35,379 nucleotides of DNA from Methylobacter sp. (GTDB taxonomy: Bacteria > Pseudomonadota > Gammaproteobacteria > Methylococcales > Methylomonadaceae): the NCBI GenBank assembly GCA_030684815.1, contig JAUXXQ010000216.1, forward strand, positions 1-35,379, read 5' to 3'. Made by a program: the position numbers and the translations under genes. Below the pieces are notes generated by a model. That model was given only the letters and a program-made list of their open reading frames with translations, ran no database searches and was not told the origin of the DNA. Positions 1-33,871 of this stretch are shown here, in pieces (position 1 is the first letter of the stretch; each line of letters starts with the position of its first letter).

Positions 1-168
1 GCAGAAAGCTTATGTACATTGACATAACACAGCGGGCTGTTGGGGGGCGTGTAATTTCTCTCATGGCGGGTGTCCCATTTGTTTTTACTAGCTATGTCAC
101 TTTGATCTCGCTTTTGTTAATTTGTCAATGCGTAAGTCCTAGTTAAATTTTAAGGCGATTTTTTTTAT
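1..168. other. Intergenic DNA without recognisable gene
   Basis: I see no convincing coding region here on either strand. The stretch is AT-rich and ends in a run of T immediately before the hairpin repeat that starts at 169. It may be the flank of a gene lying outside the window. Confidence 0.4.
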
Positions 169-288
169 CATCGTTCCCACGCTCCGGCGTGGGAATGCTT
201 GAGTACCGCTCTAGCGGTACGGGACGCTGGAGCGTCCACCACTGCATTCCCATTTATGCCCTCGGGTGCGCTAGAGAATGGAACGATG
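169..288. repeat. MITE/REP-like multi-hairpin element with 9-bp terminal inverted repeats
   Basis: The ends CATCGTTCC (169-177) and GGAACGATG (280-288) are perfect inverted copies. Inside are the hairpins CGTTCCCACG/CGTGGGAATG (about 173-198), GTACCGCT/AGCGGTAC (203-220) and GGACGCT/AGCGTCC just after it. TGGGAATGC near 189 can also pair with GCATTCCCA at 244-252. The arms GCATTCCCA and TGGGAACG recur in inverse orientation at 35061-35088, so both belong to one palindromic repeat family. No transposase lies within it. Confidence 0.75.
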
Positions 289-350: not shown

Positions 351-3300
351 TTAGTCAGCAGCCAGCGCATAAACCGGGCCCAGCGCCTTGGTTTCTTTAA
401 CCGCAAATTCGGTAATCGCATCAAAGCGCCAAGACTGCACGGCTCTTAGTTGAATAGCTTCACTAACCACAATGCCTTTATCCATGTCGCGGGCCAGCAC
501 GCCCAGCCGCACGGAATGATCGACAGCATCACCTAACGCGGTGTAATCCATTTTAATTGATGAACCAATATTGCCTTCGATGATTGCGCCGGAGGTTAGA
601 CCGAAGCCATAATCGATCGCGTTATAAATCGGCTTATCTTTCAGTAATGCCTTAACTCTGCGTAAGGCATCAACACTGGCGGCAATGGCTTCATCTATCT
701 GATCCGGGGAAAAATGCGCGACAATAATGCCGCCCGCATATTTTGCGACTTGGCCACCGTACTCAATGAATGAGGTGGAACAGATTTCCAGATAATGATT
801 AATGAGGTCGATCCGTTCTTCTACAGAAAAAGTCTCAGACAAGGCTGAAAAATCAGTAATACTGCCGGATACAATCACTTTTTCGCTGCTTTTGATCGGC
901 AACGTTAACGGATTGATGCCTTCCATCATATATTTAAGCAGTATCGGCTGGGTATAACGCCCGACGGTGCTGTACGATTGGGCGATGTTTTGCAGCATCA
1001 TGCCGATGGCCAATAACATCAGGTCATTGCTTTCACTCAGCGCCACGGTTTTCATGCCCCAATCGGTAAAAAGACGCTCCTCACAGCCGCTTTCTGCACT
1101 GAGTATGGTGATGTCAGTATGCCGGGGATCGCGGCTGATTTTTTCTACTAACTTATCCACAGTAGCTTCTTCGCCTTCCAGAATCTGAAAGAAATAATCG
1201 CGCACTGAAATCAGGGTACCGGTGACATCTAATTTTTTGTTATTTTCGCTGGCTTTTCGCCCGATCTCAAGAATATCGTCCTCATTAAGTGCTGCATTGA
1301 GTTTGCTGACGTAGGTCAAGCGTTTCAAACCGAGCGCGCCCTCAAACGTCTCAGTTTCAGGACGATAATCGCTTAGGTTACGCATAGCCTTGCCCATCAG
1401 CCAACCGCTTTTAATCAAGGCTTTAAGGTCTTCTTGCGAGACGATTTTCAATTCACAGTCGGTCATACAGCGAACCGTTTCAATGCGCCGATTTTGATGT
1501 GTTGGCATGATTTCACCAAAATAATCGCCGGGCCTTAATTCTTTGATTTTACGATCGTCCTGAATCACCTTTAACTCTCCCGCATCAATGACATAAGCCA
1601 CTTCGGCGGCGTCGCCCTGATGAAACACATCATCACCGGCTTTAAAGTGCGAGCGTTGTAAATGTACTGAATTTGCTTGGGCCAGCACGGCAATATCGTT
1701 ACGAAAGGCCAACACCAAAAACCAGTCAATAATAATGCGCAGATTCCTCTCTAATCCCGGCACGGCCAACAAATTAATCAGCCGCGAGACAAACCATGCC
1801 GGTTTTCCGCTAAGGGTCAGCCAGCCCAAACAACACCAAGAATGTTGCCCCATGGTGTAGGGTTTAATGAAATGCTTGCGCGGCTTGTAGAGGCTGGTTG
1901 CATACTGTTGGGAATAAGCCCAGGCATTAAATCCGGCACGTCGCCCCAAGTCGACTTGATCATTACTGAAAACAAATTGGCTGCGGTTTAGGGTCTGCTC
2001 GGTTTCTGTAATCCAGATATTGTCAAAAGACGCCAAGCGCAATTGATCATTAATGGCAAACGGCCAGTTTAAAAGGCCGGTTTCCAGGAAGGGAATGCTG
2101 GGGAAGACCAAGGCGGCATTAATCACCAAGCCCACAGACTGGCTCTGCCCACTGGCAAAAAACAGGTCTTTTTGAGTGATACTGGTAATTTCATCGTTCA
2201 GATGCTCGATAACACTGGCTTTTTTCAGGCAGCGGCTACGTAGCGAACTCATGTTCTGTTCAAAATCCGACCAACGCTGTTTTTTTCCTTCAAAAAGATG
2301 CACCTGCCAACCCGAATCGCGCAACACCGCATAAGACGGCTCAGCGGCTCGCAGTATTTGGCTGACTTCGACCGCGATTGAAGACGCGCATTCGCCAAAG
2401 CCAACAATCGCAAAGGTCAGCAAACGGACTTTCTCAGCCGGATCGTCCGCGAATTCGGCTTCCTCGACTAAATCAAGCACACGCTGTCTGATGCGCAGCG
2501 CATCTGCCACTGAATCGATAGGGCAGGCATGAGCGGTCATGCCGGAAATGCTGGACAGGTGTGATGTCGGCGTCAGCGCGATAATCAGGCTGTCGTAAGG
2601 TAGCTCGATGATTTCGTTGTTTTTACGTTTCGCGATGACTTTTTGCGCTTTTTCATCGATAACATCCAAATGCCCGACCACGATATGGGTCTGCTGCACA
2701 ATGCGCCGAAACGGGTTAACGACATTACCGGGTTGAACAGTGCCGCCCACCACTTCGGGCAGAAACGGCGCAAACAAAAAATTCGCCTGCTCATGCAGTA
2801 AAGTGATAGTGACATTAGAATATTGGCCGATCAGTTTCTCGATTTTAATCGCCGCCTGCAAGGCAGCAAGACCGCCGCCTATAATGACGATATGGGTCGA
2901 TTTATCTCGGGGCGTCGGTCGCCGTAAATGCCCGGCCGAATTGATAAGACAGGATAAAACCACGCCATAAAACAGAATATGCTCGGTCGGGGTTTCCGGC
3001 AACAATAAGGCAAAAACAGAAAATGCGGCAATTAAAAACAACGACAACGGGCGCAACAACACACCGGCAATCATTAACAAGCCCGTGCTCACCTCGACCA
3101 GCGCCATCACTAAGGTGAACATTTCCGGGTTAATGGACAGTATCGGCAAATCATAAAGCGTAATGATGCCTACCGACAGATTGGGTTGCATTACTTTAAA
3201 AAACAAACCCAAATACAACAGCGTAGTACCGGTCAGGATACGCATAATGGCTTGGGCGCGCTGACGCGGTTGGTCGGCAAGCCAAGATTGTAAACCACGC

Positions 3301-3971
3301 GCAAAGGCCGGCGTTGGCAACGGCAAATAATGCCGCCCCGGGCCTTGTAACAGCAGATAAATGCTGGCGCCGATGATGGCGCCCGCATAAGCGAGAATGG
3401 CCTCGCCATACAAATAGCCGCCCAACAGGCTCAAACCTATTAATAGCGCGGCAAAGAAGCGGACATAAATGCCAAACAGCAGCGTCAGGCCCAACACAAT
3501 CTCTGCCCAACGTAACCAGGCCCAACTAGGCCCCAACTGATGCAGATCGAGATCGGGCGCTAAAAACGTCGGCGTGGTAAAAGGCTCAACGCCAAAACGG
3601 GGTTCGGCACCGAATGCGGATGACAATAGAATCCAGGCCACGCAGACGCGCAAGATACGCGGAACATGGTCGCCATAGGAAGACAATTTTGCTTGTAAAT
3701 CGGGAAACAACTCACGGGCGCCGGTAAATCCGAGCCACACCCAACCGATGATGAAGACTGAAAATAGTGAAATCATCGACAGGTTGAGCGGTGATAACCG
3801 AGAAAATAGCTCAGGGCGCGGCCGGGTATTCCATTGCTCAATTTGTTCGGGTGACAAGATCCAGCGCTCATGCGCCATAACTGAATCGGAAAAAAGCAAT
3901 AGCGCGGTTATGCCAAAAACTAGCCACAGGACTTGCCAAAAGCGTCGGGAAATTAAGTCGATAGTCATCAT
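351..3971 (-). CDS. DoxX-like membrane / NDH-2 / cNMP-binding / BLUF / degenerate class III cyclase fusion protein
   Basis: A 1206-residue multidomain protein. Residues 1-345 hold about nine hydrophobic segments resembling DoxX/DoxD-type membrane proteins. Residues 360-760 are an NDH-2-like NADH:quinone oxidoreductase, with an FAD motif GGGLAA (365-370) and a second dinucleotide motif GFGECA (524-529). Residues 770-860 are a cyclic-nucleotide-binding domain with FGE (818-820) and the phosphate-binding Arg829. Residues 882-980 are a BLUF photosensor with flavin-pocket Tyr887, Asn911 and Gln929 at canonical spacing, plus Trp971 and Met973. Residues 1031-1205 closely resemble the cyclase of the Beggiatoa light-activated adenylate cyclase bPAC. 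However, the two metal-binding Asp positions are Ser1037 and Gly1081 and the transition-state Asn is Asp1151, so I infer no cyclase activity. The ATG at 3969-3971 follows a GGA ribosome site; a TTG at 3984-3986 is also possible. Expected role: a light- and cNMP-modulated membrane dehydrogenase. Confidence 0.85.
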   Translation of the reverse strand: MMTIDLISRRFWQVLWLVFGITALLLFSDSVMAHERWILSPEQIEQWNTRPRPELFSRLSPLNLSMISLFSVFIIGWVWLGFTGARELFPDLQAKLSSYGDHVPRILRVCVAWILLSSAFGAEPRFGVEPFTTPTFLAPDLDLHQLGPSWAWLRWAEIVLGLTLLFGIYVRFFAALLIGLSLLGGYLYGEAILAYAGAIIGASIYLLLQGPGRHYLPLPTPAFARGLQSWLADQPRQRAQAIMRILTGTTLLYLGLFFKVMQPNLSVGIITLYDLPILSINPEMFTLVMALVEVSTGLLMIAGVLLRPLSLFLIAAFSVFALLLPETPTEHILFYGVVLSCLINSAGHLRRPTPRDKSTHIVIIGGGLAALQAAIKIEKLIGQYSNVTITLLHEQANFLFAPFLPEVVGGTVQPGNVVNPFRRIVQQTHIVVGHLDVIDEKAQKVIAKRKNNEIIELPYDSLIIALTPTSHLSSISGMTAHACPIDSVADALRIRQRVLDLVEEAEFADDPAEKVRLLTFAIVGFGECASSIAVEVSQILRAAEPSYAVLRDSGWQVHLFEGKKQRWSDFEQNMSSLRSRCLKKASVIEHLNDEITSITQKDLFFASGQSQSVGLVINAALVFPSIPFLETGLLNWPFAINDQLRLASFDNIWITETEQTLNRSQFVFSNDQVDLGRRAGFNAWAYSQQYATSLYKPRKHFIKPYTMGQHSWCCLGWLTLSGKPAWFVSRLINLLAVPGLERNLRIIIDWFLVLAFRNDIAVLAQANSVHLQRSHFKAGDDVFHQGDAAEVAYVIDAGELKVIQDDRKIKELRPGDYFGEIMPTHQNRRIETVRCMTDCELKIVSQEDLKALIKSGWLMGKAMRNLSDYRPETETFEGALGLKRLTYVSKLNAALNEDDILEIGRKASENNKKLDVTGTLISVRDYFFQILEGEEATVDKLVEKISRDPRHTDITILSAESGCEERLFTDWGMKTVALSESNDLMLLAIGMMLQNIAQSYSTVGRYTQPILLKYMMEGINPLTLPIKSSEKVIVSGSITDFSALSETFSVEERIDLINHYLEICSTSFIEYGGQVAKYAGGIIVAHFSPDQIDEAIAASVDALRRVKALLKDKPIYNAIDYGFGLTSGAIIEGNIGSSIKMDYTALGDAVDHSVRLGVLARDMDKGIVVSEAIQLRAVQSWRFDAITEFAVKETKALGPVYALAAD

Positions 3972-4094: not shown

Positions 4095-6512
4095 TCAATA
4101 ATTCAATCCGGCCCTGACCACAATTTTAGCCGCCTTTCGTGCCGGTAAATAAGCCGCGATGAGCGCCAATATCAAGACAAAACCTAACCAAACGCCTACC
4201 GATAGCAGCGAAAAAACAAAATCGAGCTGTATGCCGAGCATGGTTAACCCCAGTTGTTTGGCTAAGGGTTCGGCGACGATGAAGGCTAGCGGAATGCTGA
4301 TTAGCCAGGCCAATAGGCCATGAAATAAGCCTTCGAGCATGAATAATTTGAAAATTGCCGGTGAACTGGCGCCGATGGCGCGGAGCACGCCGATTTCGCG
4401 GGTGCGTTGCAACACGCCGATGGCTAAGGTTCCTGATAGGCCGATCGCGCCGACTGCGGCAATCATGATGGCCAGTCCCAGCAACATGCGGGTTATCGGG
4501 CGGAATTGGTTTTCGGCAAACTGGCGTTGTTCCAGTTTGGCCTGCGTGGTGTAAACATCCAGTTTGATGTGTTGCTGCTCAAAGGCGGTTTTTAACGCAT
4601 CGACATAGCTTTTTTCTACTGCCAATGAGCCCATATCGGCAGATAGCAGCGCAAACGCATGTTTTTGCTCAGGGTCTTGAGCGGCGCTTAATGGCGCGTA
4701 CACCGATTCCACCGCATAGCCGGAACCGGCAAAGCTGCGATATAAACCAATAATCTGCCATGCACTTTCCGCTTGCCGCATCAATTTGGCGTTAACGCTG
4801 TCGCCAACCTGTAGGCCGTTGAGTTCGGCGGTTTCGGCGTTAATGACCAGCCGCTGTTGTCTGTTGTCGCTTGGCTCAAACCAGCGTCCGGCGACGATCA
4901 GCGGGTGGTACAGCGGGGTGTCGGCGGGCAGGGCTATCATTTGCAAGCCCAGACTACCGGCTTGCCGGATTAATTTATCGCGGAAGAACAATTCGGCAGG
5001 CTGGCGGTTCCAGAATTCGACGGCGGCGGTGGGCGGGAGTGTGCGCACGATGTCATTGATAATGCGCGCAGGCTGGTCTTGGGCAAAACCGATACGGACG
5101 GCGTAGCGGCTGCGCGCCAGTTCGTTGTCCAATGTCAGTTTAACTGAGGCCATCAGGCTGATGATGACGATAAATAACACGCCAGCGATAATCAGTACGC
5201 TTTGAGTCCACAGCAAACGCGCTTTGCGGCGCAGCAAATTACCCAGCGCGACGGCGTAAAGCGTCGGCAATAATGCGGCGGCGATGCGCTCAAGCCAGCG
5301 GTCAACGCCGCCGCTGGCAAAATCGGCACCTAAGCCGTAACTGGCAATGGCTTGGCGCACCGACATCGATGCGCCTTTCCAAACCGGCCATAATGCCGCC
5401 AGCAATGGCGCTATTAATCCGCCCGCACTCATTAAAATCAACGCTTGTTCTGAGTAAACAAAGCCGTTCAGCTCGATATTGAATACATCGAGTAGCCAGC
5501 GGCTGCTGTAAAAAGCGCCTGCCCAGCTTAACGGTATCGCAATCAGCAAGGCGATGAGCGACAGGATGAACACTTCGGACAAATAGATGCCCGCGATGGT
5601 TGAACGGGGCGCGCCCAGCGATTTCATGATGCCGATCTGGTCGGTTTGCTGGGTAATTAATGCGGCTACGGTGTTTAAAATCAGCACCGAACTCAAGGCC
5701 AGCGACGCCCATGCCATCACTTTTAACACCAGATGAATGCCGGAAAAAATCGCCCGCCCCCAATGCCGCTCGGGATGTTGCAATAAGGTGGCATTAACGG
5801 CAATGCCCGATGCCGCCAGCTGTGTGCGGATGTCAGCGGCGATGGTGCGGGCCTTTTCCTCGCTGTACGGCGATTTTATTTGTACTAGCAGCTGCCGAAA
5901 GGTGTGCGCGGGGATGCCAAAAAGCGGGGCTAATTCGGGCGCGATAAAAAAATGCATTTGCCCGCCAAACGTCGGCGGTTTAACAAAGGGATGCCGAATA
6001 ATGCCGTCGATAATTAGTTTTTCGCTGCCGTGTGCGCCGCTAAATTCGAGGCTGTCGCTGGCTGCAAGCCCGGAAAATTGCGCCGATAAGCGTTCGATGG
6101 CAATGCCATTTTTGTGCGGAAAATGGCCGGACAGCAAGTCCATTTTGTCGTAGCGTTGAGCCAGGTAATCGCCTCGGAACAATACGGTTCCGCTTTGCCA
6201 TTGCGCCGATTGCCGCGTTTTAAATTGCGCGGTAAATTGGGTCAGAGTGTCGATACCGGCAACGCCGTTTATAGTTTCAATGGCTTTGGCAACGGCCAAA
6301 TCGGTGTCTTGCCCCAGTATCAAATTAATGTGCGAAGGCTGCGATTGCCGGTGCGCGTTGTCCATGCTGCCGAGTTGCAAGTCCATCATGCCCAATAAGG
6401 TGCCGATGACAAACAGGCCTATCGCAATGCTGGAGATTGCTAATACGCTGCGGGAGGGGTGGCTGAGCAGATCGGCGCTGATTTTTTGCCGCAGGTTAGC
6501 GTTAAACAACAT
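4095..6512 (-). CDS. ABC transporter permease, FtsX/MacB-like, two FtsX domains
   Basis: An 805-residue inner-membrane permease with an N-terminal TM segment (about 23-45), a MacB-like periplasmic domain, a first FtsX core (about 255-385), a second TM and periplasmic part, and a second FtsX core near the C-terminus (about 680-800) containing TREIGVLRAIGAS. The equivalent coupling motif in the first core is QIGIMKSLGAP. The duplicated layout matches the long permeases of LolCDE/YbbP-type exporters, which usually move lipophilic or envelope substrates out of the membrane. It follows the ATPase gene with only 9 bases between them, so the two form one operon. The substrate cannot be read from the sequence. 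Confidence 0.9.
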   Translation of the reverse strand: MLFNANLRQKISADLLSHPSRSVLAISSIAIGLFVIGTLLGMMDLQLGSMDNAHRQSQPSHINLILGQDTDLAVAKAIETINGVAGIDTLTQFTAQFKTRQSAQWQSGTVLFRGDYLAQRYDKMDLLSGHFPHKNGIAIERLSAQFSGLAASDSLEFSGAHGSEKLIIDGIIRHPFVKPPTFGGQMHFFIAPELAPLFGIPAHTFRQLLVQIKSPYSEEKARTIAADIRTQLAASGIAVNATLLQHPERHWGRAIFSGIHLVLKVMAWASLALSSVLILNTVAALITQQTDQIGIMKSLGAPRSTIAGIYLSEVFILSLIALLIAIPLSWAGAFYSSRWLLDVFNIELNGFVYSEQALILMSAGGLIAPLLAALWPVWKGASMSVRQAIASYGLGADFASGGVDRWLERIAAALLPTLYAVALGNLLRRKARLLWTQSVLIIAGVLFIVIISLMASVKLTLDNELARSRYAVRIGFAQDQPARIINDIVRTLPPTAAVEFWNRQPAELFFRDKLIRQAGSLGLQMIALPADTPLYHPLIVAGRWFEPSDNRQQRLVINAETAELNGLQVGDSVNAKLMRQAESAWQIIGLYRSFAGSGYAVESVYAPLSAAQDPEQKHAFALLSADMGSLAVEKSYVDALKTAFEQQHIKLDVYTTQAKLEQRQFAENQFRPITRMLLGLAIMIAAVGAIGLSGTLAIGVLQRTREIGVLRAIGASSPAIFKLFMLEGLFHGLLAWLISIPLAFIVAEPLAKQLGLTMLGIQLDFVFSLLSVGVWLGFVLILALIAAYLPARKAAKIVVRAGLNY

Positions 6513-6521
6513 GCTGTTGGC

Positions 6522-7214
6522 TTATCGGTTTAGATACTGGTCGTCATGGATGCGCCCGTCATGAATGGCGATGCGGCGCGAGGCGGCTTGGGCGAGTTCT
6601 TCGTTATGGGTGACGATGACCAGTGTTTTGCCTTGCTGCTGCAAGGTGGAAAACAGCGCAAACACCGAGTCGGCGGTGGCGGAATCAAGGTTGCCGGTCG
6701 GTTCGTCGGCGACAATTAACGCCGGGTCATTGGCTAAAGCGCGGGCGATGGCAGCGCGTTGCTGTTGTCCGCCGGACACTTGGCTCGGCAATTGTTTGGC
6801 TTGATCATCCAGGCCGACCAAATTAAGCAAATAACGCGCACGTTCCAACCGCTGCCGCTTGGGTAGTGTGCCGACAAAATCCATCGGTAACAGGATGTTT
6901 TGCAATAAATTGAGCGCGGGCAATAATTGAAAAAATTGGAACACAATGCCGACATGGGCGCCGCGCCATTTGGACAATTGTTCTTCGCGCAAACGGTGCA
7001 AGGCGCTGCCGTTCACTTGTATTTCGCCCCGGCAAGGCCGGTCGATGCCGGTCAACAGGTTCAATAAAGTCGATTTTCCGTTGCCGGAAGGGCCGACAAT
7101 GGCGACAAATTCGCCGACATTAATGGTCAGGCAAATATCATGCAACACAGGCTGTTTGATTTGCCCTAGCGTATAGGCTTTATGGACGTGGGTCAGTTGG
7201 ATGATAGTGGGCAC
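6522..7214 (-). CDS. ABC transporter ATP-binding protein, LolD/MacB type
   Basis: A 230-residue ATPase with Walker A GPSGNGKST (about residues 41-49), Q-loop FQFFQLLP, signature VSGGQQQR, Walker B ALIVADEPTGNLDS and the switch His in VIVTHNEE. The ADEPTGNLDS stretch is typical of the LolD/MacB/FtsE group that works with FtsX-type permeases, and such a permease follows directly. The start is GTG at 7212-7214, with no strong ribosome site. It energises the permease encoded downstream. The promoter must lie in the 84-base divergent gap to the plus-strand methyltransferase gene. Confidence 0.92.
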   Translation of the reverse strand: MPTIIQLTHVHKAYTLGQIKQPVLHDICLTINVGEFVAIVGPSGNGKSTLLNLLTGIDRPCRGEIQVNGSALHRLREEQLSKWRGAHVGIVFQFFQLLPALNLLQNILLPMDFVGTLPKRQRLERARYLLNLVGLDDQAKQLPSQVSGGQQQRAAIARALANDPALIVADEPTGNLDSATADSVFALFSTLQQQGKTLVIVTHNEELAQAASRRIAIHDGRIHDDQYLNR

Positions 7215-7298: not shown

Positions 7299-7871
7299 AT
7301 GACTTCTATACAACTACTTTGGCTGCTGCTGGGCAGCAGTTGGACGCTGCTGGAAATGGCTATCGTTTATAAAACCCGCTTGCCCGGGTGCCATTCAAAT
7401 CAGCAAAAATACCGCTCGGAAAAGTTGATCTGGCTGGTTGTTGTTGCCGCGCTAATCGCTGCATTAACGCTTAAACAACTGCAGCTGGCGGTTTTGCCGC
7501 TGGCTTATGTTCAACGGCAAATAATTGCGCTGCTGGTGTTGGCTCTCGGCTTAGGCTTGCGCTTTTATGCGGTACTGAGTCTTGGGCGTTTTTTTAGCTC
7601 CACCGCGATGATTCAGTCCGAACATCTTTTGATAGCCCACGGCCCTTACCAGTTGATTCGCCATCCCGCTTATACCGGCTTGTTAATCAGTTTTTTTGCG
7701 GCAGGACTGGCGATGGGCGACATTGTGGCGCTATTGTCCTTGCTGTGCCCGATTGCTTATGTGTTAAATCAGCGTATCCGCATTGAAGAACAGGAACTTA
7801 TAGACCATTTCGGCGCCGCTTATCAGGCTTACCGGGTGCGCACCAAGAAACTGATTCCCTGGCTATACTAA
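7299..7871 (+). CDS. ICMT/PEMT-family membrane methyltransferase
   Basis: A 190-residue protein with about five hydrophobic segments and the C-terminal signature of the isoprenylcysteine carboxyl methyltransferase family: HGPYQLIRHPAYTG (about 131-144), then RIRIEEQELIDHFG and YRVRTKKLIPW. Bacterial members methylate small or lipophilic substrates with S-adenosylmethionine; the substrate here is unknown. The gene stands 46 bases before crtN on the same strand, so it may methylate a carotenoid acid produced by the neighbouring oxidases. That is inference from position only. It could instead act on an unrelated membrane lipid. Confidence 0.8.
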   Translation: MTSIQLLWLLLGSSWTLLEMAIVYKTRLPGCHSNQQKYRSEKLIWLVVVAALIAALTLKQLQLAVLPLAYVQRQIIALLVLALGLGLRFYAVLSLGRFFSSTAMIQSEHLLIAHGPYQLIRHPAYTGLLISFFAAGLAMGDIVALLSLLCPIAYVLNQRIRIEEQELIDHFGAAYQAYRVRTKKLIPWLY

Positions 7872-7917: not shown

Positions 7918-9423
7918 ATGTCAGAAAAAAAACATATTGTCATCATCGGTGCCGGCCCCGGCGGCCTGTGTGCAGGAATGCTGTTAAGCCAACGCGGTTT
8001 TAACGTCACTATTTTTGATAAACACAGCGAGGTCGGCGGGCGTAACCGGCCGATTCGTCTCGGCGAATTTGTTTTCGATACCGGCCCGACCTTTTTGTTA
8101 ATGAAGCACGTACTCGATGAAATGTTCGCGCACTGCGGCAAAAACAGCGCCGATTATCTGGACTTCATCAAACTAGACCCGATGTATCGTTTGTTGTTTT
8201 CCGACCGCGCCGTCAATGTCTATTCCGACCGCGACAAAATGCGTGCCGAATTGACCGGGGCTTTTAGCGAGGGCAGCGCAGGCTATGATGCCTATTTGCA
8301 ACAGGAAGGACAGCGCTTTGAGAAACTGTACCCTTGCATACAACGTGACTACAGCAGCCTGAAAGCCTTTTTTTCGCTGGATTTGCTGCGTGCTTTGCCG
8401 CGTTTGGCGCTTAATCACAGCGTCTTTTCCAATCTGGGAAAATACTTTAAAGAAGAAAAAATGCGCCTGGTGTTTTCTTTTCAATCCAAATACTTAGGCA
8501 TGTCGCCGTGGGAGTGTCCGGCGCTCTTTACCATGCTGTCTTATTTGGAGCATGAATACGGCATTTACCATGTCAAAGGCGGCCTGAATAAAATTGCCGC
8601 CGCGATGGCGCAAGTGATCACCGAACAAGGCGGGATTATCCGTACCGGCACAGCGGTTGAATCGCTGCTCATTAAAAACAAGACGGTCACCGGTGTGCGT
8701 CTGCAAGACGGCAGCGAAATTGCCGCCGATGAAGTCGTGGTCAATGCCGATTTTGCCTACGCAATGACAACGCTGGTCAAACCGACTCAATTAAAGCGCT
8801 ACAGCTCTGAAAAACTGAAAAAGCTGGAATATTCCTGCTCGACCTTCATGCTGTATCTGGGACTGGATACCCGTTACGACTTGCCGCATCACAGCATCGC
8901 ATTTGCCGAAGACTACACCACCAACATCAAAAATATTTTCAGTAATAAAATCCTAAGTAAAGACTTCTCGTTTTATGTGCAAAACGCCTGCGTCAGTGAT
9001 GACACGCTGGCACCGACCGGAAAATCCGCGCTGTATGTGCTGGTGCCGATGCCCAATAATGACAGCGCTGTTGACTGGCAAAGTGTTTGCGCCGACATGC
9101 GTGAGCAAGTGCTGGATGCGCTGGAAACGCGGTTGAATTTAACCGGTATCCGCGAACATATCGAACACGAGAAGATCATCACCCCGCAGATGTGGGAAAG
9201 CGATGAGCATGTGTTCAAAGGCGCGACGTTCAGCTTGTCGCATAAATTCAGCCAGTTGTTGTACTGGCGGCCGCACAATCGGTTTCAGGAGCTTGACCAA
9301 TGTTATCTGGTCGGCGGCGGCACGCATCCGGGCAGCGGCTTGCCGACCATTTATGAATCGGCGCATATTTCTGCGAAACTAATTTGCCAAAAACATGGCG
9401 TCAGTTTTGGCCTAGCATCATGA
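7918..9423 (+). CDS. crtN: 4,4'-diapophytoene (dehydrosqualene) desaturase, CrtN type
   Basis: A 501-residue FAD-dependent desaturase of the CrtI/CrtN family. The N-terminal dinucleotide motif HIVIIGAGPGGLCAGMLL is followed by the acidic end of the Rossmann fold (IFDKHSEVGGRN) and FDTGPTFLL. The C-terminus has the family FAD motif as VGGGTHPGSGLPTIYES. The central LEYSCSTFMLYLGLD and DDTLAPTGKSALYVLVPMP resemble Staphylococcus CrtN more than CrtP, so I assign this copy to the desaturation steps that give diapolycopene. The alternative is a carotenoid oxidase. The stop overlaps the ald start (ATGA), so the two are translationally coupled. Confidence 0.85.
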   Translation: MSEKKHIVIIGAGPGGLCAGMLLSQRGFNVTIFDKHSEVGGRNRPIRLGEFVFDTGPTFLLMKHVLDEMFAHCGKNSADYLDFIKLDPMYRLLFSDRAVNVYSDRDKMRAELTGAFSEGSAGYDAYLQQEGQRFEKLYPCIQRDYSSLKAFFSLDLLRALPRLALNHSVFSNLGKYFKEEKMRLVFSFQSKYLGMSPWECPALFTMLSYLEHEYGIYHVKGGLNKIAAAMAQVITEQGGIIRTGTAVESLLIKNKTVTGVRLQDGSEIAADEVVVNADFAYAMTTLVKPTQLKRYSSEKLKKLEYSCSTFMLYLGLDTRYDLPHHSIAFAEDYTTNIKNIFSNKILSKDFSFYVQNACVSDDTLAPTGKSALYVLVPMPNNDSAVDWQSVCADMREQVLDALETRLNLTGIREHIEHEKIITPQMWESDEHVFKGATFSLSHKFSQLLYWRPHNRFQELDQCYLVGGGTHPGSGLPTIYESAHISAKLICQKHGVSFGLAS

Positions 9424-10997
9424 CGGAAAAAATAACTGCCGTTTCGGCGCTGAATGAACAGACGTTAAAAACCTATCCGATCAGCAGCGCCGATGACATC
9501 AACGCGGCCATGGCTGCCGCCAAATTCGCCGCCGCTGTCTGGTCGCAAACGACTGTCAAACAACGGCTGAAGCAGTTGGCGCAGTTGGAAAGCATCATTG
9601 TGGTAGAAATGGACAGCATCACTGAGGTGATTAGGGCGGCAACCGGCAAAGTAAAAACCGAAGTCCTGCTCGGTGAAATCTACCCGGTGCTGGCTTTGTT
9701 GCGTTATTACCAACAAAACGCCGCGCACATTCTCGCGCCCTGTCCGGTGCAAACCTCACCGCTGTCATTTCCGCAGGCCAGCGCCATGATTGAACGCCGG
9801 GCTTATGGCGTGGCGGCGATTATTTCACCGTGGAATTTCCCGTTTCAGCTGACCTTAAGCCCGCTGTTGACCGCGTTAATCAGCGGTAATGCAGTGATTT
9901 TTAAAATGTCCGAATTAAGTCTGCCAGTCGGTGAACTAATCATGGATTTATTGGCGCGCTTGGCCTTGCCCGAAGCGTTGGTGCAACAGGTCATCGGTTT
10001 GGCGGTAAGCGGTGCGCAATTAATCGATGCCCGCCCCGATTTGGTTTTTTTTACTGGCAGTGTCAATGCGGGACGCGCAGTTATGGCAAGAGCCGCGCAG
10101 CATCCAATACCAGTCATTCTGGAACTGGGCGGTAAGGATGCCATGCTAGTGTTTGCTGATGCCAATTTGAAGCGGGCGGCAAAAGCGGCGATGTATGGCG
10201 CATTCAGCAACAGCGGGCAAGTCTGCGTGTCGGTCGAACGCTGCTATGTGGAAGCCGCCTGCTATGAGGCATTTGTCGATTTGCTTAAACAGGCGGTGGC
10301 TCAGGTGACGGCCTCCGATGTGGGCAGACTGACGACAGTACAGCAATTTGCCGTCATCGAAGCCCATTATAATGATGCGTTGGCCAAAGGCGCTCAAGCC
10401 TCAGCGCCTTTGCGGCTCGAAGGCCGTTATGTGCAGCCGGTAGTCTTGTGGAATGTAAGCCACGATATGCTTATCATGCGTGAAGAGACTTTCGGGCCGC
10501 TGTTGCCGGTGATGGCGTTCGATGCCGAACAGCAGGCCATCGACTTGGCTAACGACAGCGATTTCGGCCTGAACGCCAGTGTTTGGAGTCAGGACATCAA
10601 TAAAGCCGAGCGTATCGCCCGGCAATTACAGGTCGGCAACTGGGCGGTCAATGATGTAATCAAAAATATCGGCCATGCCGGCTTGCCGTTCGGCGGCGTT
10701 AAAAACAGCGGTTTTGGCCGTTATCACGGAGCCGAAGGCTTGCGTCAATTTAGTTATACCGTCGCCGGATTGACCAGCCGCAGTCGTCTAAATAACGAGC
10801 CCAACTGGTTTCCGTATTCCGATCGCCGCTATTTGGAGATGCGCGGTTTGATTGACCTGTTGTTCGGCAGCGGCAGCTTATATCAACGTATAACCCGCAA
10901 CTGGCGCGCATTGCAGGTGTTCCGGGGTTATGCGTCGTTAAATTTGCGCCAGCATGGACGGAATCTGTGGATTTTTTTGCGGGGGCAGGGGAGTTAA
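9420..10997 (+). CDS. ald: Aldehyde dehydrogenase, diapolycopene aldehyde type
   Basis: A 525-residue NAD(P)-dependent aldehyde dehydrogenase. Visible motifs are SPWNFPF with Asn139, the cofactor-site Lys162, the general base Glu235 in ELGGKD, the nucleophile Cys269 in SGQVCVSVERC, and EETFGPLLPV. A C-terminal extension of about 60 residues after the core (RYLEMRGLIDLLFG to the end) is longer than in soluble family members and may aid membrane or carotenoid contact. In Methylomonas an ald gene of this kind oxidises diapolycopene aldehydes to acids, and the position between crtN and crtNb fits. The start at 9420 was chosen because ATG overlaps the crtN stop. Confidence 0.88.
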   Translation: MTEKITAVSALNEQTLKTYPISSADDINAAMAAAKFAAAVWSQTTVKQRLKQLAQLESIIVVEMDSITEVIRAATGKVKTEVLLGEIYPVLALLRYYQQNAAHILAPCPVQTSPLSFPQASAMIERRAYGVAAIISPWNFPFQLTLSPLLTALISGNAVIFKMSELSLPVGELIMDLLARLALPEALVQQVIGLAVSGAQLIDARPDLVFFTGSVNAGRAVMARAAQHPIPVILELGGKDAMLVFADANLKRAAKAAMYGAFSNSGQVCVSVERCYVEAACYEAFVDLLKQAVAQVTASDVGRLTTVQQFAVIEAHYNDALAKGAQASAPLRLEGRYVQPVVLWNVSHDMLIMREETFGPLLPVMAFDAEQQAIDLANDSDFGLNASVWSQDINKAERIARQLQVGNWAVNDVIKNIGHAGLPFGGVKNSGFGRYHGAEGLRQFSYTVAGLTSRSRLNNEPNWFPYSDRRYLEMRGLIDLLFGSGSLYQRITRNWRALQVFRGYASLNLRQHGRNLWIFLRGQGS

Positions 10998-11732: not shown

Positions 11733-13226
11733 ATGAACAATAACAATAAACCCCATGTCGTCGTTATCGGTGCCGGACTGGGCGGCCTGTCTGCCGCCAT
11801 TTCACTGGCCACTGAAGGCTTTAGCGTCGATTTGCTGGAAAAAAACGACAAAGTCGGCGGTAAGCTGAATGTGCTGGAAAAGGACGGCTTCACCTTTGAT
11901 TTAGGCCCGTCTATCCTGACTATGCCACATATTTTTCGCGCACTGTTCGAGCGCGCCGGTAAAAATATGGACGATTATGTCAGCATAGAATCCGTCGAAC
12001 CGCATTGGCGCAATTTCTTTGAAGACGGCAGTACGCTGGATTTAAGTTCTGATCCGGCGCGGATGAAGCAGCAATTAGACCAGCTCGGCCCGAATACCGC
12101 GAATGAATTCGCGCAGTTTTTGGCCTATTCAAAAAAGCTGTGCGAAGTGACCGAGGCAGGCTATTTTGCCAAAGGGTTGGATTCGTTCTGGGAATTGCTC
12201 CGGCATTACGGGCCTGTTAAAAGCCTGCAGGACTTTGATGTATTTCGCTCGATGGATCAAGGCGTTAGGCGTTTTATCAAAGACCCGAAGCTGGTCGAGG
12301 TGCTGAATTACTTTATTAAATACGTCGGTTCATCGCCTTACGATGCCCCGGCGCTGATGAATTTATTGCCTTATATTCAGTTCGGTTATGGGCTGTGGTA
12401 CATCAAAGGCGGCATGTACGGCATGGCGCAAGGCTTGGAAAAACTGGCGCTGGAATTGGGCGTGACCATTCGGGTGAATACCGAAGTTGCAGAAATCCAG
12501 CATCAGGGCGGTCGTGCCACGGCTGTACGCTTGGCTGATGATAGCGTGATTGCGGCTGAACTTATTGTGTCCAATATGGAGCTGATACCGGCCTATCAAA
12601 CGCTGTTACACGGCCAGGACAAAGAAATCCGCCGCATAGAAAAGTTTGCGCCAAGCTGTTCAGGTCTGGTGTTGCATTTGGGTGTCGATAAAATTTACCC
12701 GCAACTGGCGCACCATAATTTCTTTTATTCCGATCATCCACGCGAACATTTCAAGGCGATATTCCACGATCATCGCTTATCGGAAGACCCGACTATTTAT
12801 CTGGTTGCACCGTGTAAATCCGACCCACAGCAAGCACCGGCGGGCTGCGAAATTATTAAAATCCTGCCGCATATCCCGCATCTTGACCCTGAAAATCCGC
12901 TACAGCCGGAAGATTATGCGGCCATGCGGGAGCGGGTATTACTGAAACTTGAACGCATGGGTTTGACTGATTTACGCAAGCATATCGTTTGCGAAGAAAG
13001 CTGGACGCCGGTTGATATACAACAAAAATATTATTCCAATCAAGGCGCCATTTACGGGGTTGTGGCCGACCGCTTTAAAAACCTGGGCTTTAAAAACGCG
13101 CAACGCAGCAAGGTATTAAGCAATCTATATTTTGTCGGCGGCAGCGTCAATCCGGGCGGCGGTATGCCGATGGTGACCTTATCCGGGCAGTTGGTGCGGG
13201 ATAAAATTTTGGCTGATTTGGGCTAA
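11733..13226 (+). CDS. crtNb: 4,4'-diapolycopene oxygenase (CrtNb/CrtP-like)
   Basis: A 497-residue FAD enzyme of the carotenoid desaturase/oxidase family. It has HVVVIGAGLGGLSAAISLA at the N-terminus, FDLGPSILTMPHIF, and the C-terminal FVGGSVNPGGGMPMVTLSGQ. The stretches YFIKYVGSSPYDAPALMNLLPYIQ, LAHHNFFYSDHPREHF and GAIYGVVADRFKNLGFK match Staphylococcus CrtP and the Methylomonas enzyme that oxidises terminal methyl groups of C30 carotenoids. I therefore call it the oxygenase rather than a second desaturase. The resulting aldehydes are the expected substrates of ald. It was probably once co-transcribed with ald; hicAB now separates them. Confidence 0.87.
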   Translation: MNNNNKPHVVVIGAGLGGLSAAISLATEGFSVDLLEKNDKVGGKLNVLEKDGFTFDLGPSILTMPHIFRALFERAGKNMDDYVSIESVEPHWRNFFEDGSTLDLSSDPARMKQQLDQLGPNTANEFAQFLAYSKKLCEVTEAGYFAKGLDSFWELLRHYGPVKSLQDFDVFRSMDQGVRRFIKDPKLVEVLNYFIKYVGSSPYDAPALMNLLPYIQFGYGLWYIKGGMYGMAQGLEKLALELGVTIRVNTEVAEIQHQGGRATAVRLADDSVIAAELIVSNMELIPAYQTLLHGQDKEIRRIEKFAPSCSGLVLHLGVDKIYPQLAHHNFFYSDHPREHFKAIFHDHRLSEDPTIYLVAPCKSDPQQAPAGCEIIKILPHIPHLDPENPLQPEDYAAMRERVLLKLERMGLTDLRKHIVCEESWTPVDIQQKYYSNQGAIYGVVADRFKNLGFKNAQRSKVLSNLYFVGGSVNPGGGMPMVTLSGQLVRDKILADLG

Positions 13227-31622: not shown

Positions 31623-32354
31623 ATGGCGATTGACTGGTTTACCGTTGGCGCCCAGATTATCAACTTCCTGATTTTGGTCTGGCTGCTGAAAAAGTTTCTC
31701 TACCGGCCTATTATCAAGGCGATGCACAGCCGCGAACAAGGTCTGCTTGCGCGTTTGCAGCAATCGCAAGCAAGCATGTCCGAGGCCGAGCAACTGAAAA
31801 ATCAGTATCAAACCAGCCTGGAACAACTGCATAACGAGGCCGATAACATAAGGTCGGACGCCAAACAGCAGGCCGAAGCCGAACGATTGGCGCAGCTGCA
31901 AGCTTTGGATGACGACATGCAGCAGAAAAAAAACCGATTTGCCGAGGAATTGCAGCGCCAACAACAGGCTGCAGGCGTGGCAATCAAGCAGCTGATTACT
32001 GAAAAAGCGTTGCAGTTGAGCGGGAAAATACTCGAAGGCCTTGCCAGTCAGCGGTTGGAACAGCAGATCGCCCATCAATTTTTGCAGCATTTGGACATCT
32101 TGCCGAATGATCAGCAGGCGCTGTTACAACAAGCGCTAAGCCAGAATGGCGCGGCCATTATCAGCAGCGCATTTTCGCTGGACGAACCTTTATGCGCAAT
32201 TATTCGCGAACGATTGATTCAGGCAGGTGCAGGCAACGTGGTGTTTGAACAAGACCCGCGATTTGTTTGCGGCATTACGCTGGAAGCAGGCGGCAGAAGC
32301 TGGGAATGGACGCTTGAGCGTTATCTGGCCGAACTTGACAGCGAGTTGTCATGA
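31623..32354 (+). CDS. atpF: N-type ATP synthase subunit b with delta-like C-terminus
   Basis: A 243-residue stator subunit. The N-terminal membrane segment [26 protein letters not shown] is followed by a long charged coiled coil (about 35-140). The C-terminal 70 residues ([19 protein letters not shown] and [22 protein letters not shown]) resemble the delta/OSCP end. N-ATPase operons lack a separate delta gene and have such long b subunits. It starts three bases after atpE and overlaps atpA by four bases. Confidence 0.88.
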
Positions 32355-33871
32355 ACAGTGATTTCGAGCCGTTTTTGCAGCAAGCATCAGAGCAACTGGA
32401 CAGCGTGTTGCAGCAAGACGCTTTCGCCTTACGCGCAAGGGAAGTGGGTCGGGTGTTGCAGGTCAGCACCGGCGTGGTGCGGGTTAGCGGCTTGCCGGGC
32501 ACGCAAGCGATGGAATTGCTGCGTTTTGACAACGGCATTCTGGGCATTGCTTTTAACCTCGACCCGGACGAAATCGGCGTGGTTCTGCTCGGTGAAAAAA
32601 CCGGGCTGAGTGCCGGAAGCCGGGTGGAACGCACCGGGCGCGTGGTTGATGTGCCGGTGGGTTCGGCGCTGTTGGGGCGGGTGATTGATGCCTTAGGACA
32701 GCCGCTGGACACGGCGGATGCGATCAACACCGATTTGCGCTGGCCGATAGAGCGCGAGGCGAGGCCGATTATCGAGCGTTCGCCGGTGACCGACCCCTTA
32801 CAAACCGGTATTAAAGTCATTGATGCGCTGATTCCGATAGGCCGAGGTCAGCGGCAGTTGATTTTAGGCGACCGACAAACCGGCAAAACCGCCATCGCCA
32901 TCGATACCGTGCTCAACCAGCATGACAAAAATGTCATCGCCGTTTATTGCGCCATCGGGCAGCGCGGTTCGGCAGTGGCCAAGGTCATCGATTGCCTGCG
33001 CACGGCGGACGCGCTAAAAAACAGCGTGGTGCTGGTGGCTTCGGGCGAGTCGACGCCGGGGCTGCAATATATCGCGCCTTATGCGGCGGCCAGTATTGCC
33101 GAGTGGTTTATGGAACAGGGCAGGGATGTGCTGGTCATTTACGACGATTTGACCCGTCATGCCCATGCCTATCGCGAGCTGTCGTTATTATTGCGCAGGC
33201 CGCCGGGACGCGAGGCTTATCCGGGCGATATTTTTTATCTGCATTCGCGTTTATTGGAGCGGGCCACGCATTTAAAACCTGCGTTCGGCGGCGGCAGTCT
33301 GACTGCCTTGCCGATTATTGAAACCCAGGCGCAAAACCTGTCCGCCTACATTCCGACCAATCTGATTTCAATCACCGACGGCCAGATTTACCTATCGCCG
33401 ACGCTGTTCCAAAAAGGCGAACTGCCCGCCGTGGATGTCGGCAAATCGGTGTCCCGCGTGGGCGGCAAGGCGCAACTGCCGGGTTATCTTGAGGTGTCCG
33501 GCCAACTGCGTTTGGCTTATGCTCAATTTGAGGAACTGGAAGCCTTCGCCCGTTTCGGCACCCGTCTGGACGAGGCGACCCGGCACAGTATCGAACGCGG
33601 CCGCCGGGTCAGAGAAATTTTAAAACAAGACGAAAACCAGCCGCTGTCGGCCTTTGAGCAGATTGTATTGTTGATAGCAGTGAATGAAGGTTTGTTCGAT
33701 GCTGTTGCCGTTGTTTCGGTCAAAAAAACCGCCCATCAGCTAGGGCAGGCGCTGGCTAATCAGTTAGCTGCGCAACGGGAAAAAATCCACGCCGGGCAGC
33801 GCCTTGGCGATGAAGACAGGTTGCAGATGCTGGCTTTTATCCGTTCGGTGCTGGCTGATGCAAACGCTTGA
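32351..33871 (+). CDS. atpA: N-type ATP synthase subunit alpha
   Basis: A 506-residue F1 subunit. P-loop GDRQTGKT (173-180), the DELSEED-equivalent C-terminal region and [12 protein letters not shown] with the conserved Arg of the catalytic interface are visible. N-terminal [18 protein letters not shown] is standard. No frameshift or missing motif is seen, so the gene is intact. It overlaps atpG by 14 bases. Confidence 0.93.

Follow-up and report, generated by a model that had tools for sequence, protein, structure and literature searches.

A fused DoxX, NDH-2-like and BLUF-cyclase protein of Methylobacter as a candidate blue-light receptor with a probably decayed cAMP step

What might a protein do that joins, in a single chain, a DoxX-type membrane module, an NDH-2-like oxidoreductase part, a cyclic-nucleotide-binding (CNB) domain, a BLUF photosensor and a class III cyclase-homology domain? 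Such a protein is encoded on contig JAUXXQ010000216.1 of Methylobacter sp. (assembly GCA_030684815.1), and the whole 35,379 nt stretch of this contig is referred to here as the window. A preliminary description had read five modules in one frame at 351..3971, without giving a strand, and had taken the product to be a membrane NADH dehydrogenase tuned by blue light and cyclic nucleotides. The frame, the coordinates and the BLUF and CNB residues named there are correct, and so is the notion that a redox-like membrane protein is linked to a BLUF domain whose key residues are intact. The gene lies on the minus strand, and the opposite (plus) strand of the same region is packed with stops. With slightly better than even confidence, we read the protein as a membrane-bound blue-light receptor, in which a two-protein cyclic AMP (cAMP) pathway would have been merged into one chain and its messenger step would then have decayed. 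To the more specific statement, that a sensor-messenger-effector chain was fused, that messenger synthase and receptor were inactivated and that light drives the membrane redox module directly, we assign an even chance. Homology, residue losses, a single fusion clade, selection and gene order could be demonstrated by sequence comparison. The parts of the gene are as follows (all on the minus strand):

351..3971, minus: whole gene, 1206 amino acids plus stop; start ATG at 3971, open reading frame open to 3986
2922..3971, minus: residues 1-350, N-terminal membrane segment, AHERW stretch and doubled DoxX-type membrane module (Pfam DoxX, hydropathy)
1872..2906, minus: residues 356-700, NDH-2-like part, a pseudo-oxidoreductase (Pfam, NDH-2 matches in the PDB, motif tally)
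1662..1871, minus: residues 701-770, hydrophobic C-terminal segment of the NDH-2-CNB type (hydropathy; a comparable segment seen by eye in L116)
1392..1661, minus: residues 771-860, CNB domain with altered phosphate-binding cassette (Pfam, PDB alignment, residue tally)
1479..1481, minus: codon of Glu831, a cassette position that is Ala in 13/13 unfused rows (residue tally, PDB alignment)
1329..1391, minus: residues 861-881, CNB-to-BLUF linker of near-constant length (Glu820-Tyr887 spacing)
1050..1328, minus: residues 882-974, BLUF domain (Pfam; Tyr887, Asn911, Gln929, Trp971 and Met973 intact)
882..1049, minus: residues 975-1030, BLUF-to-cyclase connector (OaPAC alignment; invariant columns)
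387..881, minus: residues 1031-1195, class III cyclase-homology domain, predicted to be catalytically dead (alignments with photoactivated cyclases, residue tally)
861..863, minus: codon of Ser1037, equivalent to the OaPAC metal ligand Asp156 (OaPAC alignment)
729..731, minus: codon of Gly1081, equivalent to the OaPAC metal ligand Asp200 (OaPAC alignment)

A Pfam search recovered four of the expected families in this order, all over their curated cut-offs: DoxX at residues 106-182 (two stretches; 27.9 bits against a cut-off of 23.6), Pyr_redox_2 at 360-623, cNMP_binding at 775-854 and BLUF at 882-974. The fifth, Guanylate_cyc, gave no match in the window protein, whereas a standalone relative scores E 3.4e-12. 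Among the matches listed from the open-access literature we found no description of this architecture, in agreement with the preliminary description, which had known of no protein with this order.

Is the chain one gene, or a product of assembly? We searched 311 genomes of Methylobacter's order, scoring the two best candidates per genome, and obtained a match at E <= 1e-30 in 58 of them. The architecture sought in other Methylococcales was found: a single frame runs across CNB, BLUF and cyclase part in 36/311 genomes, the window's own included, and none of these 36 spanning matches has an internal stop. Among named relatives (Methylobacter, Crenothrix, other metagenome-assembled genomes of Methylococcaceae and Methylococcales, and some records titled 'uncultured proteobacterium') the frame spans in 23 of 26 loci; some isolate names suggest lake samples. 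These two counts exclude both an assembly join and a sequencing error, and we rejected these explanations. We likewise rejected the view that the parts are consistently separate in homologues: the DoxX-NDH-2-like-CNB protein is unfused in 15/311 genomes (in G091 as two fragments only) and fused in 36, with the fused ones forming one clade. Contig ends cut the match before the junction in three genomes (G150, G155, G076), BLUF-cyclase occurs alone in two (G082, G083) and the NDH-2-like part alone in one (G263). In one genome (G017) the fused gene is split between contigs; it is broken near the end of BLUF, with its pieces (L011, L015) on different contigs. The gene is present in 6/23 genomes of the window's own genus. 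Beyond the order, 369 genomes sampled at class level and 398 at phylum level gave partial matches only and no full copy of the architecture (E <= 1e-30, the two best candidates scored in each), and a plasmid search at E <= 1e-20 returned just two NDH-2-like partial matches of ~25% identity.

When a standalone BLUF-cyclase served as query, it was found in 53/311 genomes of the order at E <= 1e-50, comprising 37 fused genomes (counting G017), 14 unfused genomes and the two with BLUF-cyclase alone; the one unfused genome of the 15 that gave no match, G091, is 72% complete. No second BLUF-cyclase was seen in the fused genomes when as many as six candidates per genome were scored. At four loci read in one genus (g49), the two unfused genes are direct neighbours in different frames, and at a fifth they share a frame with true stops between them. 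Second BLUF-cyclase copies were observed in G102 and in G104, the latter copy being standalone and divergent (L077, 3733-4845, minus strand), with its second Asp lost.

How often did the fusion arise? In a tree of 50 BLUF-cyclase rows, midpoint-rooted with class-level standalone cyclases outermost, the 30 fused rows and the G017 fragment form one clade (support 100/99); its sister group is made up of the standalone cyclases of G094-G098 (97/90), and further standalone ones stand around it. In a tree of 42 rows of the N-terminal part, a single branch (100/100) separates 29 fused from 13 unfused rows. Eighteen fragments or partial matches had been left out before tree building, and the unfused rows cover 13 of the 15 genomes (G091 and G097 left out). 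These trees are most simply read as a single fusion that started from an unfused state.

What became of the photocyclase after the fusion? Over residues 881-1195 the protein can be aligned, with no large gaps, to the structures of OaPAC (E ~1e-74) and bPAC (E ~1e-65), which bears out the proposed homology with a bPAC-like cyclase region. The BLUF residues Tyr887, Asn911 and Gln929, at the positions named in the preliminary description, as well as Trp971 and Met973, are present and kept in 30/30 fused rows, and the connector pattern YTQP.LLK....G.NPL is invariant across 21 fused rows. The same genome also encodes a short, independent BLUF protein of 137 amino acids that has no cyclase part (L006, 1396-1806, minus strand). 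The metal ligands of OaPAC are Asp156 and Asp200, according to the accessible part of PMC11533990; in the window protein they are replaced by Ser1037 and Gly1081. The first metal Asp is present in 19/19 standalone and 0/30 fused rows, the second in 18/19 and 4/30, the catalytic Asn in 19/19 and 1/30 (the window protein has Asp1151 instead) and the catalytic Arg in 19/19 and 5/30 (the window protein keeps Arg1155). The 19 standalone rows consist of 14 from unfused genomes, the two from genomes with the photocyclase only and three from the class level; L015_B, which the script had scored as 'alone', is the C-terminal piece of the contig-broken fused gene and was left out. On the tree, loss of the first Asp needs one change and loss of the second needs three, in fused rows and in the standalone L077_B. 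With the first Asp gone from 30/30 fused rows, an active cyclase is not supported, and the domain is predicted to be catalytically dead. The window protein thus resembles bPAC from Beggiatoa and OaPAC from Oscillatoria in its BLUF domain with flavin-site residues, its connector and its class III domain, and differs from both by Ser1037 and Gly1081 and by being the tail of a membrane protein rather than a free enzyme. BlrP1, a BLUF-EAL photoreceptor and active phosphodiesterase that acts through a messenger, was also among the PDB matches of this part. As in BlrP1, BLUF is predicted to control an output in its own chain; unlike in BlrP1, the enzyme for the messenger looks dead, and a membrane module is the predicted output.

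Purifying selection persists throughout the chain. The ratio of non-synonymous to synonymous substitution rates (dN/dS, Nei-Gojobori) was 0.00-0.25 in every domain of the nine fused pairs that were measurable throughout, and low in BLUF and DoxX. The cyclase-part/BLUF ratio was 1.7-7.9 in the nine fused pairs versus 0.6-1.6 in seven standalone ones; the p value of 1.7e-4 from a rank test overstates independence, as the window gene was used twice and several of the standalone pairs have a member in common. Saturation led us to exclude the fused pair L031/L106, and synonymous divergence between the window gene and L043 is near 2. Together, the two measures indicate that selection on the cyclase part was relaxed after fusion, yet that this part is not free. 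Synonymous divergence between the window gene and its 93% identical relative L035 is 0.09 in the DoxX part but climbs to ~0.8 in BLUF and cyclase part, as if recombination had exchanged the 5′ half.

Might the cyclase part, though not an enzyme, still bind ATP or another nucleotide between subunits, so that light and energy state are integrated? This is the strongest rival to direct control by light, because Lys1077, Asp1142 and Thr1144, which we take to be purine-side residues, are mostly kept in the fused rows: residue 1077 is Lys in 21/30 and Arg in 4/30, Asp1142 occurs in 26/30 and Thr1144 in 28/30. Continued purifying selection on the domain would also fit. Nevertheless, the catalytic Asn and Arg are mostly gone, position 1077 is Glu or Asp in 5/30 fused rows and selection is relaxed relative to BLUF, and we regard nucleotide binding as rather unlikely, if well worth keeping in mind.

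Could the CNB domain still respond to a cyclic nucleotide? The intact FGE (818-820) and Arg829 noted in the preliminary description were both found, and the cassette residues Gly819, Glu820 and Arg829 are kept in 42/42 fused and unfused rows. The cassette of the window protein reads Arg829-Ile830-Glu831, however, and thus lacks the small residues after Arg that characterise the cAMP type (R-A/T/S-A). The Ala two positions after the cassette Arg is present in 13/13 unfused and 0/29 fused rows, which have Glu (28) or Asp (1). In the accessible part of PMC2246266, Ala occupies this position in 11 of 13 Arg-bearing CNB consensus motifs, the exceptions being Tetrahymena channels and NtcA. Tuning by cyclic nucleotides is therefore unsupported, as Glu or Asp replaces the cassette Ala in 29/29 fused rows. 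Between this domain and BLUF, the spacing from Glu820 to Tyr887 is 64-67 residues in 65/65 pattern-found loci, a set in which the pattern preselects fused-type cassettes and duplicates of one genome are included. Could BLUF then serve merely for localisation or dimerisation, with cAMP from another, intact cyclase still controlling the membrane protein? The window's own genome does contain a class III cyclase-like protein (L005) whose two Asp and Asn/Arg pair are readable, and Arg829 is retained; but the acidic residue at 831 in all 29 fused rows and the BLUF Tyr, Asn and Gln, invariant in 30/30 and needless for localisation, make this scenario improbable.

Just as improbable is the original proposal of an active NDH-2 at which blue light and a bound cyclic nucleotide tune electron entry. 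In its favour, NDH-2 proteins are the best PDB matches, the Pyr_redox_2 and CNB Pfam matches exceed their cut-offs, the stretch around NFLFAPFLPEV.GGTV is retained, and intact motifs do occur in one NDH-2-CNB protein, L116, which carries a CNB domain at the C-terminus of NDH-2 and has no DoxX (motifs read by eye). Regarding the two dinucleotide motifs reported in the preliminary description, the glycine-rich stretches are there (GGGLAAL and GFGECA), but their third glycines are missing. None of the 42 fused and unfused rows has the GD motif for flavin adenine dinucleotide (FAD), the ATG-motif Gly or the NAD-site Glu; in the window protein the GD position is Thr655-Glu656 and the NAD-site stretch is GFGECASS, not GGGxxGxE. 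In the same alignment the ordinary NDH-2 relatives L004, L101 and L108 retain all three motifs, as does L116. As no row has the GD motif for FAD or the Glu of the NAD site, the designation NADH dehydrogenase is unsupported, and the altered CNB cassette of all 29 fused rows speaks against tuning by a bound cyclic nucleotide.

Relationships to described families are correspondingly partial. The window protein shares sequence similarity, Pyr_redox_2 and PDB matches with NDH-2 but has neither the GD motif nor the ATG-motif Gly nor the NAD-site Glu; it shares with DoxX/DoxD membrane proteins a Pfam DoxX match, found twice, but is fused. The accessible part of Kannan et al. 2007 describes a CNB family, 'Bact_Pyrredox', with a pyridine-nucleotide oxidoreductase N-terminal to tandem CNB domains (PMC2246266). 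As far as that part goes, the window protein has the same placement of an oxidoreductase-type domain before CNB, and L116 resembles the family with its motifs intact; the window protein differs in having one CNB domain, DoxX in front, lost oxidoreductase motifs, Arg-x-Glu instead of Arg-x-Ala in the cassette, and BLUF and a dead cyclase behind.

A degenerate chain without remaining function, its fusion being lost, would fit the three degraded sites and the patchy distribution (6/23 same-genus genomes), but is the least probable reading of all, given dN/dS of 0.00-0.25 throughout nine pairs, 36 stop-free spanning matches and conserved replacement residues such as Glu831 (28/29).

The order of events can be outlined from the same comparisons. 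Since the NDH-2-like losses lie on both sides of the fusion, L116 is intact and doubled DoxX modules of ~370-400 amino acids exist on their own (L097, L117, L118), a series of four steps is plausible: an NDH-2-CNB protein, addition of DoxX with loss of the oxidoreductase sites, fusion with the photocyclase, and loss of cyclase and cassette residues. As judged from the residue tallies, living relatives keep an unfused stage with intact sites as well as putative fused intermediates with one metal Asp. At the ancestral stage, a separate BLUF adenylyl cyclase would have made cAMP in the light, which would have bound the CNB domain of the DoxX-pseudoNDH-2 membrane protein. After fusion, the metal ligands of the cyclase and the cAMP-type cassette of the CNB domain would have been lost, with the photosensor, the connector behind BLUF and the DoxX module remaining under purifying selection. 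Invariant columns across the 42 rows are most frequent in the DoxX part (91/331 over residues 20-350) and in residues 701-770 (20/70), as compared with 43/345 in the NDH-2-like part and 14/90 in CNB.

The apparent disabling of cyclase and CNB suggests direct light control of the membrane protein. According to this light-receptor reading, blue light would switch the hydrogen bonds of the BLUF flavin, as the intact residues imply, and the change would travel through the cyclase-like scaffold and the linker of near-fixed length to the CNB fold. The cyclase part would make no cAMP, the signal passing mechanically; CNB, its cAMP sensing gone, would act as a relay that shifts the NDH-2-like fold and hence the DoxX module, the presumed output. 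This output is probably an altered quinone or periplasmic electron branch, which in most main-clade relatives may feed an adjacent tri-haem peroxidase. A tri-haem cytochrome c peroxidase-like gene lies directly downstream on the same strand in 23/26 testable main-clade genomes (membership by tree, or by identity for fragments), and is not adjacent in G299, G274 and G018. G209 (contig end) and the window's own genome (350 bp left) were left out of this count, and G136 and G291, fused by the order search, are absent from it, no locus having been read. The peroxidase of L035, when scanned, showed Haem_bd and CCP_MauG domains; three CxxCH motifs occur there and in two others. In four genomes of g14 the open frames of fused gene and peroxidase overlap, counted stop to stop. 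At 2/13 unfused loci, some with little flank, the peroxidase lies ~3 kb away on the other strand. The E. coli peroxidase YhjA, to our knowledge the nearest described analogue of this neighbour, has reportedly been proposed to draw on the quinol pool, and by analogy offers a lead.

Several observations weigh against our reading. The peroxidase gene stands beside 0/7 basal fused genes examined, and no such partner was found in the window's own genome, where the best match is 44% identical; it cannot, therefore, be the sole output. Given the single fusion clade, the fact that cyclase and cassette residues were lost together amounts to one historical correlation plus later losses rather than many independent events, and the scored residues stayed in the tree columns. 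The standalone L077_B also lacks the second Asp, so fusion is not required for that loss. The putative purine-side residues are mostly retained, and with Arg829 and Glu820 kept in 42/42 rows, some binding of cyclic nucleotides is possible. Finally, direct coupling is without structural support, because both AlphaFold models are weak: mean pLDDT (predicted local distance difference test) is 65 for residues 765-1206, with 16/19 ten-residue blocks of the cyclase part at >= 67, and 46 for residues 1-775.

If the light-receptor reading holds, the series from unfused and intact through fused with one Asp to fused with none would document how a diffusible messenger was replaced by direct allostery, and methanotrophs would be expected to have a membrane module that receives blue-light input directly. 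Should light act on methane oxidisers through this protein, the gene would permit a test at the gene level. Protein engineering would gain a naturally evolved light switch based on a dead cyclase.

The window also contains a carotenoid locus, in keeping with the carotenoid production that the preliminary description ascribed to the organism. ABC exporter genes lie upstream of the fused gene (4095-7214), where the upstream genes of L035 differ in size, the property by which they were compared. Two crtI-family desaturases (7918-9423 and 11733-13226, plus strand) score above cut-off, an aldehyde-dehydrogenase-like gene between them (9384-10997) scores below all NCBIfam cut-offs shown, and an ICMT/PEMT-type methyltransferase gene (7299-7871) lies beside this carotenoid locus. 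At 160-260 (plus strand), in the 350 bp between gene and contig end, inverted-repeat-like sequence was noticed by eye, a possible cause of the contig break. At the other end of the window, 32351-33871 (plus strand) encodes the alpha subunit of an alternate F1F0 ATPase, with TIGR03324 scoring above its cut-off, which points to a second operon of the N-ATPase type.

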